The notes beneath the pieces are model-generated. The model did not search any database. It was given only the letters and a program-made list of their open reading frames with translations, and was not told the origin of the DNA. A DNA stretch of 64,000 bases. It comes from Aquabacter sp. L1I39. GTDB taxonomy: Bacteria > Pseudomonadota > Alphaproteobacteria > Rhizobiales > Xanthobacteraceae. Below, piece after piece: positions 1-4,876 of this stretch; the stretch's first letter is position 1; every line of letters starts with the position of its first letter. Both the position numbers and the translations under genes were made by a program. Location: the NCBI RefSeq assembly GCF_017742835.1, contig NZ_CP072392.1:459388-523387 (forward strand), given 5' to 3'.

Positions 1-200
1 TTCGGCCGGTGCTGATGGGAGAACCTGTTGCCCACGCGGCGCAGGGCCGAGGCCATAAATCCCCGCGCGGGAGCGGACGGAGCCCGGCTCCGACGTCTAA
101 CCCATTTATCCCTGGCGCGCCGCCGCGCGCCGGCCGCTCCCGCATCCCTCCACCTCGCCATCGGCGGGGATGTTGGTGCTGGAGTGTTCGCGTCCATGCT

Positions 201-358
201 TCCCCCTCCCCACCCCTCCCCCGCTTCGCGGGAGAGGGAGCCTGTCGCGCCGGGAAGAGGTCGAGAGGACAGACGTCCATCACGCCCAGAGCCACCCTTC
301 CGCCAAACGCACCGCAGTCCCCTCTCCCGCAAAGCGGGGGAGGGTTAGGGAGGGGGCA
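201..358. repeat. palindromic interspersed repeat, copy 1
   Basis: About 158 bp, repeated almost unchanged at 446-604. The two ends form terminal inverted repeats of roughly 38 bp. The left arm is C-rich and contains CCCCCGCTTCGCGGG; the right arm is its near reverse complement and contains CCCGCAAAGCGGG. Each arm also has a small internal dyad. There is no ORF inside. The structure resembles a MITE-like or REP-like element of the kind scattered through rhizobial genomes; naming its family would need a genome-wide search. Confidence 0.85.
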
Positions 359-445
359 AAACGGCAGGGCCGGGGGTGACGGGAAGAGTTGAGGAAAGGG
401 GCGAGGCACGACTTGGACGAGGAGAGTGCTTCACCATCCGCCCTT

Positions 446-604
446 TCCCCCTCCCCACCCCTCCCCCGCTTCGCGGGAGAGGGGGCCTGTCGCGCTGGGG
501 GAGAGGTCGAGAGGACAGACGCCCATCACGCCCAGAGCCACCGCCCCGCCAAGCGCACCGCAGTCCCCTCTCCCGCAAAGCGGGGGAGGGATAGGGAGGG
601 GGCA
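446..604. repeat. palindromic interspersed repeat, copy 2
   Basis: Second copy of the element at 201-358, in the same orientation, with about a dozen substitutions and a one-base length difference. The core (GGTCGAGAGGACAGACG and CATCACGCCCAGAGCCACC) and both inverted ends are kept. The 87 bp between the copies are not repeated, so this looks like two insertions or a tandem duplication with a spacer rather than one larger element. Confidence 0.85.
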
Positions 605-835: not shown

Positions 836-1798
836 TCAGGCCGCCGCGCGGCAGCGCTCCAGGGCCCAGCGCACCAGCTTGCGCACGTCGGGATCGGGAT
901 CGTCGAAGGCCCCTTCCAGCGCTGCGACCGCCGCCGGATCGGCGATCTCGCCCAGCGCCGCGGCGGCCTCCTTGCGCACGTTGGACAGATCATGGCCGAG
1001 CGCCCCGGCAATCACCGGCACGCCCTCGCTGGCCTTGAGCTTGCCCAAGGCATTGATGGCCTTGGCGGTCACCTGCCAGGTCTCGTCGCCGGCGGCGATG
1101 ACCAGCGCGCCCACGGCTTCCGGCAACTTGGCCTTGCCGATGGAGAAGGCGGCTTCCTCGCGCACCTGCCAGTTGGGATCGGTGAGGCCCTTCAGGAGCG
1201 CCGGCACGCCTGCCGTTCCCGGCCGCACGAAGACGAGGGAGGCCATGACCGAGCGCCGCACGGACGGCTCGGCATCGCCGGCCGCCATCATCAGCGCCGG
1301 CAGGGCCGCCTCGGCCTTCAGATAGCCGAGCACGCCCAGCGCCTCCCGGCGCACCGCCACTTCCGGATCGGAGAGCGCGGACAGGGCCACCGGCATGGCG
1401 GCCTCCACCTGCATCTCCTTCAGCGCCCGAAGCGCCGAAGCCCGCACGAAGGCATTGCCCTCCCGCGCCCGCTCGATCAGGGCACCGGCGCTCGCCGGCT
1501 CCTTCTTGTCGGCGAGGCTCTCGGCGGCGGCGAGGCGCACCGCCTCCACGTCGTCATCGAGCGCCTTGATCAGGGCGAGCGCGACAGGCGCCCCCTGGTG
1601 CTCGTCCAGCGCCTTGGCGGCGGCTTCGCGCACCATGGCGTCGGGATCGACGATGCCTTCCAGCAGGAGGTCCACGGCGGCGGGGTCCACCGCCTCCGCC
1701 AACTCCAGCATAGCCACCCGGCGGATGCCCGCATCAGCGCTGCGGGCACGCTCCGCAATCTCGTCCAGTTCGTCGTCGAAGGTCTCGAAGACCGCCAT
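836..1798 (-). CDS. HEAT-repeat (PBS-lyase-like) protein
   Basis: A 320-residue soluble protein built almost wholly of ~30-residue HEAT repeats of the phycobilisome-lyase type. Successive units carry D(P)-x-VR-x-(A/E)A-x-x-ALG signatures, for example in the last repeat near residues 300-312. Such repeats form alpha-solenoids that bind protein partners. No catalytic motif is visible. It is the last gene of the leftward operon; its ATG follows the ferredoxin stop by 10 bp and has a strong GAGGAGG site. The context suggests a scaffold or assembly factor for the flavoprotein-ferredoxin pair. That role is inference; the family assignment is firm. Confidence 0.85.
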   Translation of the reverse strand: MAVFETFDDELDEIAERARSADAGIRRVAMLELAEAVDPAAVDLLLEGIVDPDAMVREAAAKALDEHQGAPVALALIKALDDDVEAVRLAAAESLADKKEPASAGALIERAREGNAFVRASALRALKEMQVEAAMPVALSALSDPEVAVRREALGVLGYLKAEAALPALMMAAGDAEPSVRRSVMASLVFVRPGTAGVPALLKGLTDPNWQVREEAAFSIGKAKLPEAVGALVIAAGDETWQVTAKAINALGKLKASEGVPVIAGALGHDLSNVRKEAAAALGEIADPAAVAALEGAFDDPDPDVRKLVRWALERCRAAA

Positions 1799-1808
1799 GT
1801 CCGCCTCC

Positions 1809-2042
1809 TCAGCGCAGCAGATAGGGGATTTCGACCTTCACCGCGCCGGTGGGGCAATCCACCTCGCAGGGCATGCAATACCAGCACTCGTCATACTTCA
1901 TGTGCGCCTTGCCGGAGGCCGGGTTGATGGCGAGCACGTCGAGCGGGCACACATCGATGCACACGCGGCAGCCCTTCTCGGCAATGCACTTGTCGTCATC
2001 GACGGTGACGGGAACGGAGGTGGTGTGGTTGGCGAACGGCAT
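1809..2042 (-). CDS. two-cluster [4Fe-4S] ferredoxin, AprB-like
   Basis: A 77-residue ferredoxin with two cysteine sets. Residues 19-32 read C-x5-C-x2-C-x3-C followed by P, and residues 53-63 read C-x2-C-x2-C-x3-C followed by P, which fits two [4Fe-4S] clusters. A longer frame runs upstream, but the ATG at 2042 is preceded by GGAG and lies 25 bp after the flavoprotein stop, so I prefer it. Coupling to an AprA-like flavoprotein recalls the AprBA pair of adenylylsulfate reductase, although real AprB is about twice as long and carries a C-terminal tail. The likely role is electron transfer to or from the flavoprotein. Ferredoxin is certain; the partner is inferred from the operon. Confidence 0.88.
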   Translation of the reverse strand: MPFANHTTSVPVTVDDDKCIAEKGCRVCIDVCPLDVLAINPASGKAHMKYDECWYCMPCEVDCPTGAVKVEIPYLLR

Positions 2043-2067
2043 GGCGGGCTCCGAAAGGGCGAGGGGA

Positions 2068-3804
2068 TCACTCGGCGGCGATGGCCGGGGTGCGCAATTG
2101 GTGGTAGGCGCCCATCTCTTCTTCCGGGATCTCCACCACATAGGGGTCCACCGCGCGCTTGCGATGGGCCATGCGGCCATTGTCATCCTTGTAGAGAAGG
2201 GTGTGGCAGAACCAGTTCTCGTTGTCGGTGGCGGGATGATCCACCCGCCAGTGATAGAGGCCCCAGCGGCTCTCGGTGCGATAGAGCGAGGCGGCGGCGG
2301 CCATGTCGGCGCAATCGAGGATGGATTGCAGCTCCAGCGCCCGCATCAGCTCGTGGGGATCGCGCGCCACCATGTGCCGGAGGTCGTCCCGGATCTCGGC
2401 AAAGCGCTCCTGGGCGATGTGATACTTGGCGGTGACCTTGGGCGGCTGGAGATAGTCGTTCACCAGACGCCGGGTCTTGAACTCCATCTCGAAGGGGGTC
2501 AGCCCATCCGTGCGGCGGGTGGGGGCGAGCACACGTTCCTGCTCGGCCCGCACATCGGCCGGGTCATAGGCCGGCAGATCAAGAGAGGCGCAGTAATCGG
2601 CCGCGTCCCGCCCGGCAATGCCGCCATTCACGAAGGCGCCGAGCATGTAATTGTGCGGCACGCTGGCCATGTCGCCGGCGGCATAGAGGCCATCCACCGT
2701 GGTGCGGGCATTCTCGTCCACCCACACGCCGGAAGCCGAGTGGCCGGAGCAGAAGCCGATCTCGGAAATGTGCATCTCCACCATGCGCTGGCGATAATCG
2801 GTGCCGCGCTTCTCGTGGAAGCGGCCGCGGGAGGGCCGCTCGTTGGAATGCAGGATGGTCTCGATCTCCGAGATGGTCTCCTCGGCCAGATGGTTCATCT
2901 TCAGGAAGACTGGGCCGTTGCCGCTCTCCAGCTCGCCGAAGAACTCCTTCATCATCTGGCCCGACCAATAGTCGCACTCGATGAAGCGCTCGCCCTTGTT
3001 GTTGGCGGTGTAGCCGCCGAACGGACCGGTCACATAGGCGCAGGCCGGGCCGTTATAGTCCTTGATGAGCGGGTTGATCTGGTAGCATTCCAGGTTCGCG
3101 AGCCCCGCTCCCGCATGATAGGCCATGGCATAGCCATCGCCACAATTGGCCGGGTTTTCATAGGTGCCGAACAGATAGCCCGAGGCCGGAAGGCCCAGCC
3201 GACCGGCGGCGCCGCATGCCAGGATCACCGACTTGGCGCGCACCACCAGAAACTCGGAGGTGCGGGTGTTCACACCGATGGCGCCCGCGATCCGGCCGTC
3301 CGGCGCATTGAGCAGGCGGGTGGCCATATAGCGGTTGGTGACGTTGACCTGAAGGCGGCGCAGCTGGCGGTAGAGCGCCTTCTTGACGTGGTGGCCTTCC
3401 GGCATGGGCAGCACATAGGTGCCCATGTGGTGGACCTTGCGCACATTGTACTCGCCCGAGCCGTCCTTCTCGAACTTCACGCCGATGGAATCCAGATACT
3501 GGATCATCGGGTAGGAGCCGGTGGCATAGGCCATCACCGCCTTCTGATGGACGATGCCATCATTGGCGACGGTGATTTCCTTCACATATTGCTCAGGGGT
3601 GGCATAGCCGGGGATGACGGCATTGTTCAGCCCGTCCATGCCCATGGAGACCGCGCCGGAGCGCTTCACATTGGCCTTCTCCATCAGCACGACCTTGAGG
3701 CCGGGATTCTTCTCCTTGGCCTTGATGGCGGCCATGGGCCCGCCGGTGCCGCCGCCAATGACCAGGATGTCGCATTCGACGATCTCGGTGGGGATGTCGC
3801 TCAT
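2068..3804 (-). CDS. AprA / fumarate-reductase-like FAD flavoprotein
   Basis: 578 residues of the fumarate reductase / succinate dehydrogenase / adenylylsulfate reductase flavoprotein superfamily. The N-terminus (residues 10-40) is a Rossmann FAD site with GGGTGGP and a following acidic residue. The C-terminal FAD signature, DGLYAAGDMASVPHN, lies near residue 370. The start overlaps the DUF971 stop as ATGA and has GGAG 8 bp upstream. It lies directly before a two-cluster ferredoxin, as AprA does with AprB, but no sulfate-activation or dsr gene is nearby and no membrane anchor gene follows. The substrate is therefore unknown. An oxidoreductase acting on a sulfur compound or a small organic acid is possible. 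Superfamily is certain; adenylylsulfate reductase activity is not claimed. Confidence 0.85.
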   Translation of the reverse strand: MSDIPTEIVECDILVIGGGTGGPMAAIKAKEKNPGLKVVLMEKANVKRSGAVSMGMDGLNNAVIPGYATPEQYVKEITVANDGIVHQKAVMAYATGSYPMIQYLDSIGVKFEKDGSGEYNVRKVHHMGTYVLPMPEGHHVKKALYRQLRRLQVNVTNRYMATRLLNAPDGRIAGAIGVNTRTSEFLVVRAKSVILACGAAGRLGLPASGYLFGTYENPANCGDGYAMAYHAGAGLANLECYQINPLIKDYNGPACAYVTGPFGGYTANNKGERFIECDYWSGQMMKEFFGELESGNGPVFLKMNHLAEETISEIETILHSNERPSRGRFHEKRGTDYRQRMVEMHISEIGFCSGHSASGVWVDENARTTVDGLYAAGDMASVPHNYMLGAFVNGGIAGRDAADYCASLDLPAYDPADVRAEQERVLAPTRRTDGLTPFEMEFKTRRLVNDYLQPPKVTAKYHIAQERFAEIRDDLRHMVARDPHELMRALELQSILDCADMAAAASLYRTESRWGLYHWRVDHPATDNENWFCHTLLYKDDNGRMAHRKRAVDPYVVEIPEEEMGAYHQLRTPAIAAE

Positions 3805-4151
3805 GGCCTGTGCTCCGCAAGGTCGGCCCCCGCGAGGGCGCGCAGATAGCTGAAGGGGTAGATGCCGCGCTCGTGCCCATCGGAGAAATGCAGGTTCAGG
3901 GCATAGTCAGCGATGGGGGAAAGCGAGGTGATGGCGATGCCGGGGAAGCCCGTGGGAAACCGTTCCTCGGCCCGGGCGCGGGTGCACCAGGCGCAGCGGC
4001 AGGCGGTGCGCAGGGTGGAGGCCCGGAAGGTGTGGGGGCGCCCGTCATCCCAGGTCAGGACCAGTTCGTCCCGCCCGGCGCCGAGACGGACTTCCTCCGG
4101 CACCGCCGAGGGGTCGAAGAGGGAGGAGGAGGTCTCAAGGGCGTTGATCAT
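3801..4151 (-). CDS. DUF971 protein
   Basis: 116 residues of the DUF971 (gamma-butyrobetaine hydroxylase N-terminal-like) family. The diagnostic C-R-C-A-W-C cysteine cluster lies near residues 51-56, and the ending contains SDGHERGIYPFSYLR. The domain occurs alone, at the N-terminus of carnitine-biosynthesis dioxygenases, where it binds zinc, and fused to Mrp/HCF101 Fe-S carrier proteins. As the first gene of an operon with an Fe-S ferredoxin and a flavoprotein, a cofactor-insertion or Fe-S role is plausible but inferred. The stop overlaps the next start by 4 bp, which implies translational coupling. Confidence 0.85.
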   Translation of the reverse strand: MINALETSSSLFDPSAVPEEVRLGAGRDELVLTWDDGRPHTFRASTLRTACRCAWCTRARAEERFPTGFPGIAITSLSPIADYALNLHFSDGHERGIYPFSYLRALAGADLAEHRP

Positions 4152-4186
4152 GGGTCCGATTGGACACCGGCCCAGCCGCGCCAGAT

Positions 4187-4200
4187 AGCAACTAGTTGCT
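4187..4200. promoter_or_regulatory. perfect 14-bp palindrome upstream of the flavoprotein operon
   Basis: AGCAACTAGTTGCT is a perfect dyad whose near edge is 36 bp upstream of the DUF971 start codon. Position and symmetry fit an operator for a dimeric repressor such as a MarR- or TetR-type protein. No regulator gene adjoins it in the window. The operator role is inferred. Confidence 0.5.
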
Positions 4201-4375
4201 GAACTGGTCTATTTCCAAAATCCGCCCCACGGCCACGCCCAAGCCCTGCGGCGCAAGGATTTGCACAATGTGGCGGCAATCGCGGACGAAGGGGGCGAAT
4301 TTGGCAGCAGGTCCATCTTTCGTTAACCTGCATGGCGGCTAGATGGCCACCTCATGCATAGCATTGGAGAGAAAT

Positions 4376-4876
4376 ATGCTGCCACGTATGGCTCTGACAG
4401 CAGTTCTGATCCTTTCGTGCGGAGCGGCTCACGCTGCTGTTCCCAAGTCTCTCGGCACCTACGAGGACTGGAGCGTCTGGACGTATCAGGAGAATGGGTC
4501 CGCCCATTGCTACATCTATTCCGCACCGAAACAGGAAATGCCTGCCTCCCTCAACCATGGGGACGTCTCGTTCTTTGTCCGCATGGTGGGAAAGAACGCC
4601 AACCGCACCGAGGCCAGCCTGACCACGGGTTATGACCTTGCCCCCAATTCCACCGTGCAGGCGGACGTGGACGGCAAGGACTTCCCGATGATGGTGGGCG
4701 GCCCCAATGCCTGGCTGTCCTCGGCGGCGCAGGAGACCGACTTCCTGGCGGCGCTGAAGCGCGGCGACGAGTTGAAGATCTCGGCCAAGTCGCGGCGCGG
4801 CAACTCCACCAACTACATCTTCTCCTTGAGCGGCGTCACTGCCGCCATGAACCGCATGCAGTCCGCCTGTCCGTGA
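4376..4876 (+). CDS. IalB-family secreted protein
   Basis: 166 residues. A signal peptide (LTAVLILSCGAAHA) is followed by a domain of the invasion-associated locus B type: an early W-x-V-W strand, a central C-Y-I-Y, and an ending with LSGVTAAMN and a last cysteine three residues from the end. The family is periplasmic or surface-associated and common in Hyphomicrobiales; its molecular role is poorly defined. An upstream in-frame ATG exists at 4343, but the ATG at 4376 has GGAGAG just before it and gives a normal signal peptide. A paralogue lies at 14853-15374. Confidence 0.85.
   Translation: MLPRMALTAVLILSCGAAHAAVPKSLGTYEDWSVWTYQENGSAHCYIYSAPKQEMPASLNHGDVSFFVRMVGKNANRTEASLTTGYDLAPNSTVQADVDGKDFPMMVGGPNAWLSSAAQETDFLAALKRGDELKISAKSRRGNSTNYIFSLSGVTAAMNRMQSACP

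Follow-up and report, generated by a model that had tools for sequence, protein, structure and literature searches.

A flavoprotein-ferredoxin operon of Aquabacter sp. L1I39 and its possible catalytic role in a two-locus sulfur-scavenging system

We analysed a four-gene operon in a 64,000-nucleotide stretch of the Aquabacter sp. L1I39 genome (contig NZ_CP072392.1, positions 459,388 to 523,387; the whole stretch is called the window below). The operon encodes a DUF971 protein, a flavin adenine dinucleotide (FAD) flavoprotein, a ferredoxin and a HEAT-repeat protein. Its gene set and family membership were established by computation, as were the co-occurrence of its genes in other genomes and a conserved palindrome upstream. 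The four window genes appear to be the enzyme half of a split system, with the importer half at a second locus. Our favoured explanation, which we put slightly below an even chance, is that the operon supplies the enzymes of a sulfur-scavenging system whose parts are divided between two loci. With electrons from a low-potential ferredoxin, the flavoprotein-ferredoxin pair would reduce an imported sulfonate or sulfate ester and set sulfite free.

Gene set, second locus and palindrome

All four genes are on the minus strand. The DUF971 gene (3801-4151, 116 aa; PF06155, 72.5 bits) opens the operon and is followed by genes for the flavoprotein (2068-3804, 578 aa, NF006131/PRK08275 family; PF00890, 123.5 bits, and PF02910, 54.1 bits), a predicted two-cluster [4Fe-4S] ferredoxin (1809-2042, 77 aa; Fer4_7, 35.5 bits) and a HEAT-repeat solenoid (836-1798, 320 aa; HEAT_2, 167.2 bits). 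A first-pass annotation, made from the letters of the window, had described four minus-strand genes with the DUF971 and flavoprotein reading frames sharing 4 bases (3801-3804) and with downstream gaps of 25 and 10 bp. The open reading frames (ORFs) confirmed this arrangement, with the first base of the operon at 4151 and not at 4200, up to which that annotation had run. The ferredoxin start was taken as an inner ATG, the listed ORF extending further upstream. Pfam profile matches of all four window proteins agreed with the given gene names, PF06155 being GBBH-like_N, formerly DUF971. Compared with Aquabacter (L005), dN/dS was 0.08 for the flavoprotein, 0.05 for the ferredoxin, 0.24 for the HEAT protein and 0.32 for the DUF971 protein, suggesting that all four are genes under constraint (purifying selection). 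On the 3' side of the HEAT gene (window 200-604) there is a G+C-rich intergenic repeat with long inverted arms, in two copies 93-96% alike and 245-246 bp apart.

Related loci were sampled as the best 80 of at least 596 confirmed flavoprotein stretches, with Bradyrhizobium contributing 26 of the 80. Genes were tallied by tblastn and counted if present anywhere in the locus; 22 loci had less than 10 kb on one side and 58 had full flanks. The first-pass annotation had proposed co-occurrence across genomes as its check, and here it held: flavoprotein, ferredoxin and HEAT protein occurred together in 80/80 loci and DUF971 in 68/80. The ferredoxin lay on the flavoprotein strand, 10-114 bp past the flavoprotein match, at every locus. 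An SsuA-like binding protein was found in 72/80 loci (37 of 43 genus-level groups; 54 of the 58 full-flank loci) and a permease in 71/80. Ferredoxin-NADP reductase (FPR) was present in 50/80 loci and FdxA in 31/80, with a PRK06567-type oxidoreductase in 3/80 and Rnf in 1/80. Regulators were of the Crp type in 51/80 loci and of the GntR type in 25/80. YeiH was found in 32/80 loci, while the tally for TauE varied with the method (2/80 loci by tblastn versus four genus groups by neighbour families).

The partners of the flavoprotein recurred in varying form. In the three cyanobacterial plasmid loci read, a gene for an Mrp/NBP35 Fe-S carrier lay 3' of the HEAT gene, and two of these loci had YeiH, TauE and a LysR regulator bearing a binding-protein domain. 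In Tsukamurella the HEAT part was joined to the flavoprotein C-terminus, and the Nonomuraea flavoprotein ORF was 940 aa long. This recurrence of Fe-S helper, HEAT protein and electron supply in changing form supports a partner role for them. Across 76 aligned copies, each of the eight ferredoxin cysteines was missing from at most one, and the window ferredoxin is probably the electron-transfer subunit of the flavoprotein. The DUF971 protein, whose 64 clustered copies include 56 with a C.C..C motif, is a probable Fe-S cluster helper. The HEAT protein, which aligned to the C-terminal portion of the fused model NF010374, is probably a docking or assembly partner of the flavoprotein. Two copies showed further genes nearby. 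In a gammaproteobacterial metagenome-assembled genome (L020, 11943-16982) Rnf-like genes followed the module, RnfB- and RnfC-type domains being confirmed and the others recognised by eye. In Nostoc (L142, 12004-19413) genes for HAD hydrolases, a methyltransferase, GNAT and VOC proteins separated flavoprotein from ferredoxin, with sulfur-assimilation genes further downstream.

The family spans three phyla (Proteobacteria, Cyanobacteria and Actinomycetota) and is often plasmid-borne, with copies on rhizobial, cyanobacterial and Acidithiobacillus plasmids. In a plasmid collection the flavoprotein (E 1e-40) was matched in 55 records, the binding protein (E 1e-50) in 43 and both in 41; some records were chromosome-sized (Acinetobacter, Nonomuraea), and 3 of the 41 shared records covered less than 60% of the flavoprotein or binding-protein query.

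No importer of the SsuA-like type was found beside the operon within the window. A second locus in the genome (L116, 6696-12417) carried, in order, genes for a Crp regulator, binding protein, permease, ATPase, FdxA and ferredoxin-NADP reductase, 79-88% identical to a contiguous Aquabacter cluster. A genome search with the binding protein gave this copy, 86% identical to that of Aquabacter, and one other match at 31%; a YeiH-family gene lay at a third place. Since the importer, FdxA, FPR and Crp genes that often adjoin the module sit at the second locus, the earlier view of the operon as self-contained does not stand. Among 385 evenly drawn Alphaproteobacteria, the flavoprotein (E<=1e-100) and the binding protein (E<=1e-60) were found in the same four genomes, in two of which they were far apart; because two of the four carriers belong to one family, they do not count as four independent events.

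The binding protein (L005, 14009-15442; second locus L116, 7673-9121) consists of an SsuA-like domain and a C-terminal NosL-like part. It was closest to sulfonate/taurine binding proteins (SsuA/TauA) and matched the SsuA fold, yet scored under the SsuA_fam (TIGR01728) cut-off of 163.5 (122.1 bits for L005, 104.0 bits for L020). Since the fold list barely covers residues after 356, the NosL-like assignment rests on a profile match of cut fragments. With the cut-off at 24 bits, one of three such fragments passed (25.1) and two did not (23.2 and 22.3), while no NosL match was found with whole binding proteins at E 0.001. In two alphaproteobacterial loci (L063, 3793-7105; L024, 15583-18657) genes for an unassigned membrane protein with a CC pair, SCO1, PCu(A)C and cytochrome c lay between importer and regulator, the families having been checked for L063 and the ORFs of L024 looking similar. 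The cyanobacterial LysR regulators with a binding-protein domain (L143, 9676-11676; L144, 9403-11439; Pfam check on L143) suggest, through this fusion, induction by the imported ligand itself. A diverged importer (34% identity) on Gordonia plasmid pCP113 (L161, 578-12340) lay near an arylsulfatase gene and a gene of the formylglycine-generating-enzyme family, which fits sulfate esters as cargo; this plasmid was not among the plasmid-collection records with a flavoprotein match.

A perfect palindrome, GCAACTAGTTGC, was found at 4188-4199, 37-48 bp upstream of the DUF971 start, as a candidate operator of the Crp-type regulator. It was the only match in the window at up to one mismatch (0.07 expected), and an identical palindrome lay 5' of DUF971 in L005 and L006. 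The same or related palindromes were located 5' of a module gene in 43/81 loci, where about one hit was expected in single-base shuffles of all loci. Of 50 hits, 44 lay 5' of module genes (37 DUF971, five binding protein, one flavoprotein, one TauE). The form GCAANTANTTGC was present anywhere in the locus in 40/48 loci with Crp only, 0/22 with GntR only, 1/3 with both and 2/7 with neither. Bradyrhizobium made up 26 of the 40 Crp-only loci that had it (26/26), and the frequency among the other Crp-only loci was 14/22. The Crp-type regulator presumably binds the palindrome. The palindrome lies in the intergenic stretch between the operon and a divergent plus-strand gene for an IalB-family protein (4343-4876; 33.4 bits, cut-off 22.1).

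The flavoprotein family and the predicted reaction

As a whole protein the flavoprotein exceeded the NF006131 (PRK08275) cut-off (1071.2 versus 587 bits). Both NF006131 and NF010374 (PRK13800, the HEAT fusion) are generically named as fumarate reductase/succinate dehydrogenase flavoprotein subunit. The protein fell under the cut-off of 641.75 for adenylylsulfate (APS) reductase AprA (TIGR02061; 153.2 bits for the protein, 100.3 for the genome stretch) and under that for succinate dehydrogenase/fumarate reductase (TIGR01812; 154.9 versus 567.3 bits). In the tree it was placed in an uncharacterised clade, corresponding to the NF006131 family, that is sister to AprA and 3'-phosphoadenylylsulfate (PAPS) reductase. 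Among solved structures, sequence and predicted fold both placed 8a8o, the PAPS reductase of Methanothermococcus thermolithotrophicus, closest to it. Titles and abstract openings of the papers found assigned no function to the NF006131 flavoprotein family, and the passages available likewise gave no enzyme activity. The operon had been put forward as the best candidate for an undescribed system in the window; it is not entirely undescribed, since an NCBIfam model for the family exists and the available text of PMC12375680 lists a plasmid copy.

Under our favoured explanation, an SsuA-type ATP-binding cassette (ABC) importer encoded at the second locus would take up a sulfonate or an organic sulfate ester. 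Electrons would pass from NADPH through ferredoxin-NADP reductase, FdxA and the two-cluster ferredoxin to the FAD of the flavoprotein, and the reduced flavin would attack the substrate sulfur, as in APS reductase. Sulfite would be freed for assimilation without ATP-dependent sulfate activation, and YeiH/TauE-type exporters, where present, may clear surplus sulfite or sulfate. The HEAT protein would dock onto the flavoprotein, DUF971 would aid cluster loading of the ferredoxin, and the Crp-type regulator would act at the 4188-4199 palindrome. In this scheme we infer the substrate class, the direction of electron flow, the sulfite product and the roles of HEAT protein, DUF971 and regulator. The sulfonate lead of the first-pass annotation gained support from the gene neighbours. 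That the ferredoxin-reducing partners change yet recur suggests that low-potential electrons enter the flavoprotein. APS reduction, at about -60 mV, does not need low-potential electrons, and reductive cleavage of a sulfate ester would be far harder (sulfate/sulfite, about -516 mV); we use these values as a ground for the low-potential need by way of plausibility argument only.

Several observations weigh against this explanation, above all in the active site. The residues that we take to surround APS in AprA are Asn74, Tyr95, Trp234, Arg265 and His398 (Archaeoglobus fulgidus numbering), of which Arg265 presumably touches the sulfo group of the substrate. In the alignment, equivalents of Asn74 and His398 were retained in 20/20 clade members; in the same 20/20, Arg265 was replaced by Leu, Trp234 by Tyr and Tyr95 by Glu. 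The AprA/PAPS-reductase-type rows retained Arg and Trp in 4/4 and Tyr in 3/4. The exchanges of Arg265 and Trp234 indicate an altered pocket, for which a sulfo substrate is not assured. The tree contains long branches, of which the tree program warns, and the family is patchy, with 4 of 41 relatives searched giving more than 700 bits, one of these matches being split in two. Within 10 kb, none of the electron-supply genes (FPR, PRK06567-type oxidoreductase, Rnf) was found in 16 of the 58 full-flank loci, and a YeiH or TauE match was not found in 30. At the second locus no palindrome was detected at up to two mismatches 5' of the regulator or binding-protein gene, where there was a half-site-like stretch only, so that control of the two loci by one regulator is less well supported here. 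Finally, the NosL-like part and the copper genes at some loci have no place in the proposed route.

Glu141 is another AprA residue of interest. Gln145 is named in the available passages of PMC10322725. The clade has a longer segment of its own in place of the Glu141/Gln145 stretch, and two alignments place this segment differently; the PAPS-reductase-type protein of Ilyobacter also lacks both residues. The catalytic His and Arg motifs that we assign to the FrdA/SdhA type were absent from the aligned flavoprotein positions. Canonical AprA, PAPS reductase and FrdA/SdhA identities were ruled out by model cut-offs, residues and tree, and the earlier placement of this AprA-like flavoprotein/ferredoxin/HEAT/DUF971 set outside canonical AprA and SdhA stands, with alignment, tree and cut-offs in agreement.

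Taken further, the reading would be one of oxygen-independent, reductive desulfurisation driven by ferredoxin. After import of a sulfate ester or sulfonate, a flavoenzyme resembling APS reductase would break the S-O or S-C bond of the compound, yielding sulfite directly and saving the ATP otherwise spent on sulfate activation. We hold this more tentatively than the explanation above, at clearly less than an even chance. Sulfate from sulfatases must be re-activated before assimilation. In the passages available from PMC4267179, sulfate esters and sulfonates figure as the main forms of sulfur in soil, the desulfonation routes covered need oxygen, and sulfatases yield sulfate. A reductive route to sulfite, if true, would open a sulfur source to anoxic niches, and with its genes, the two-locus split and the palindrome defined, the reading is testable by a few deletions.

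Alternative explanations

The flavoprotein could instead be a reductase or dehydrogenase of a non-sulfur substrate, such as an unsaturated acid or a nitrogen compound, delivered by a transporter of the NitT/TauT family and handled by fumarate-reductase-type hydride chemistry. We consider this unlikely, though the best of the alternatives. The affinity of the binding protein to SsuA/TauA and the YeiH and TauE neighbours point to sulfur, as do metX, O-acetylhomoserine sulfhydrylase and YeeE about 8-11 kb from the Nostoc flavoprotein copy; the missing FrdA/SdhA-type motifs argue against the hydride chemistry.

Somewhat less probable again is that flavoprotein and ferredoxin donate electrons to a C-S-cleaving monooxygenase elsewhere in the cell. 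This has been proposed for AsfA/AsfB of Pseudomonas putida S-313, described in the available part of PMC4267179 as a reductase/ferredoxin serving C-S bond oxygenation, and two plasmid copies of the module have LLM or NtaA-type flavin monooxygenase genes nearby. No oxygenase was recognised, however, in the 19 neighbour families common to at least four genus groups, most of them annotated by model and clusters 12, 13, 15 and 16 by eye. The genome gave no match to the SsuD model, other oxygenases not having been searched for, which speaks against a donor role to SsuD. FPR and FdxA already make up a donor chain, which makes the flavoprotein look like the acceptor of that chain.

A copper- or metal-linked periplasmic system, in which the NosL-like domain captures copper or a copper-sulfur species on which the flavoprotein then acts, would account for the NosL-like fragment match (one of three over the cut-off) and for the genes of SCO1, PCu(A)C and cytochrome c that separate transporter from regulator in L063, with their similar-looking counterparts in L024. 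The SCO1-like cluster was restricted to four genus groups, though, and the cyanobacterial LysR fusion stops about at the end of the SsuA-like part, without the NosL-like part, making this reading improbable. Least probable of all, by a little, is an alternative assimilatory APS or PAPS reductase, given the three replaced pocket residues, an SsuA-type importer that would be superfluous, two PF01507 (PAPS-reductase-type domain) matches over the cut-off elsewhere in the genome, and the setting of the Ilyobacter protein between cysC and cysD, genes not recognised among the shared neighbours of the flavoprotein loci. With PF01507 matched twice, the absence of sulfate-activation genes near the operon, also remarked on at first pass, carries little weight.

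Comparison with known systems

The nearest analogue of the module is probably asfRABC of Pseudomonas putida. In the passages available from PMC4267179 it comprises a binding protein, a transporter, a reductase/ferredoxin and a LysR regulator; use of aromatic sulfonates, but not of aliphatic ones, depends on asfA. Like asfRABC of strain S-313, and asfRAB of Cupriavidus metallidurans CH34, the module combines an FAD reductase, a ferredoxin and an ABC-type binding protein for presumed sulfur scavenging; unlike asf, with its LysR regulator, it has Crp or GntR. It is probably not asfRABC itself, no flavoprotein match on the CH34 megaplasmid being close (best 61 bits). A first candidate region in CH34 was unlike AsfAB, and a better fit came from the flavoprotein-ferredoxin pair at 927881-929862 of NC_007974. 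The putative CH34 AsfA, identified from gene order and rough position in an unannotated record, was 23% identical to the window flavoprotein (55 bits). HEAT and DUF971 proteins were not matched at E 1e-3 in 63 kb around the putative AsfAB (L149, L158; queried with the window proteins and the L055 DUF971). A PRK06567-type oxidoreductase was rejected as AsfA, its match in the plasmid collection at E 1e-30 being in pTcM1 alone.

With AprAB the module shares an FAD alpha subunit of the same superfamily, in a sister clade, and a ferredoxin beta subunit with two predicted clusters (its eight cysteines are conserved, and its gene adjoins that of the flavoprotein in 80/80 loci). It differs in scoring far under the AprA cut-off, in the replacement of Arg265, Trp234 and Tyr95, and in its importer, HEAT and FPR/FdxA neighbours. 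The M. thermolithotrophicus PAPS reductase (8a8o), which the available passages of PMC10322725 place in a sulfate-assimilation pathway, likewise has a ferredoxin-like beta subunit with two clusters but retains the Arg where the window protein has Leu. SsuABC/TauABC with SsuD/TauD resemble the module in transporter family and in a presumed sulfur-scavenging role, whereas the module has a binding protein under the SsuA_fam cut-off with a NosL-like C-terminus, and a ferredoxin-linked flavoprotein in place of a recognised oxygenase. NF010374 resembles the fused actinobacterial flavoprotein-HEAT type.

Part of this has been anticipated. In the available text of a 2025 paper (PMC12375680), 'ferredoxin/APS reductase/GntR' and a sulfonate transporter are named as plasmid cargo, and two operons of 'F. 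caldus' are predicted to take up and assimilate organosulfonates. The copy on pTcM1 agrees with that account of the cargo.

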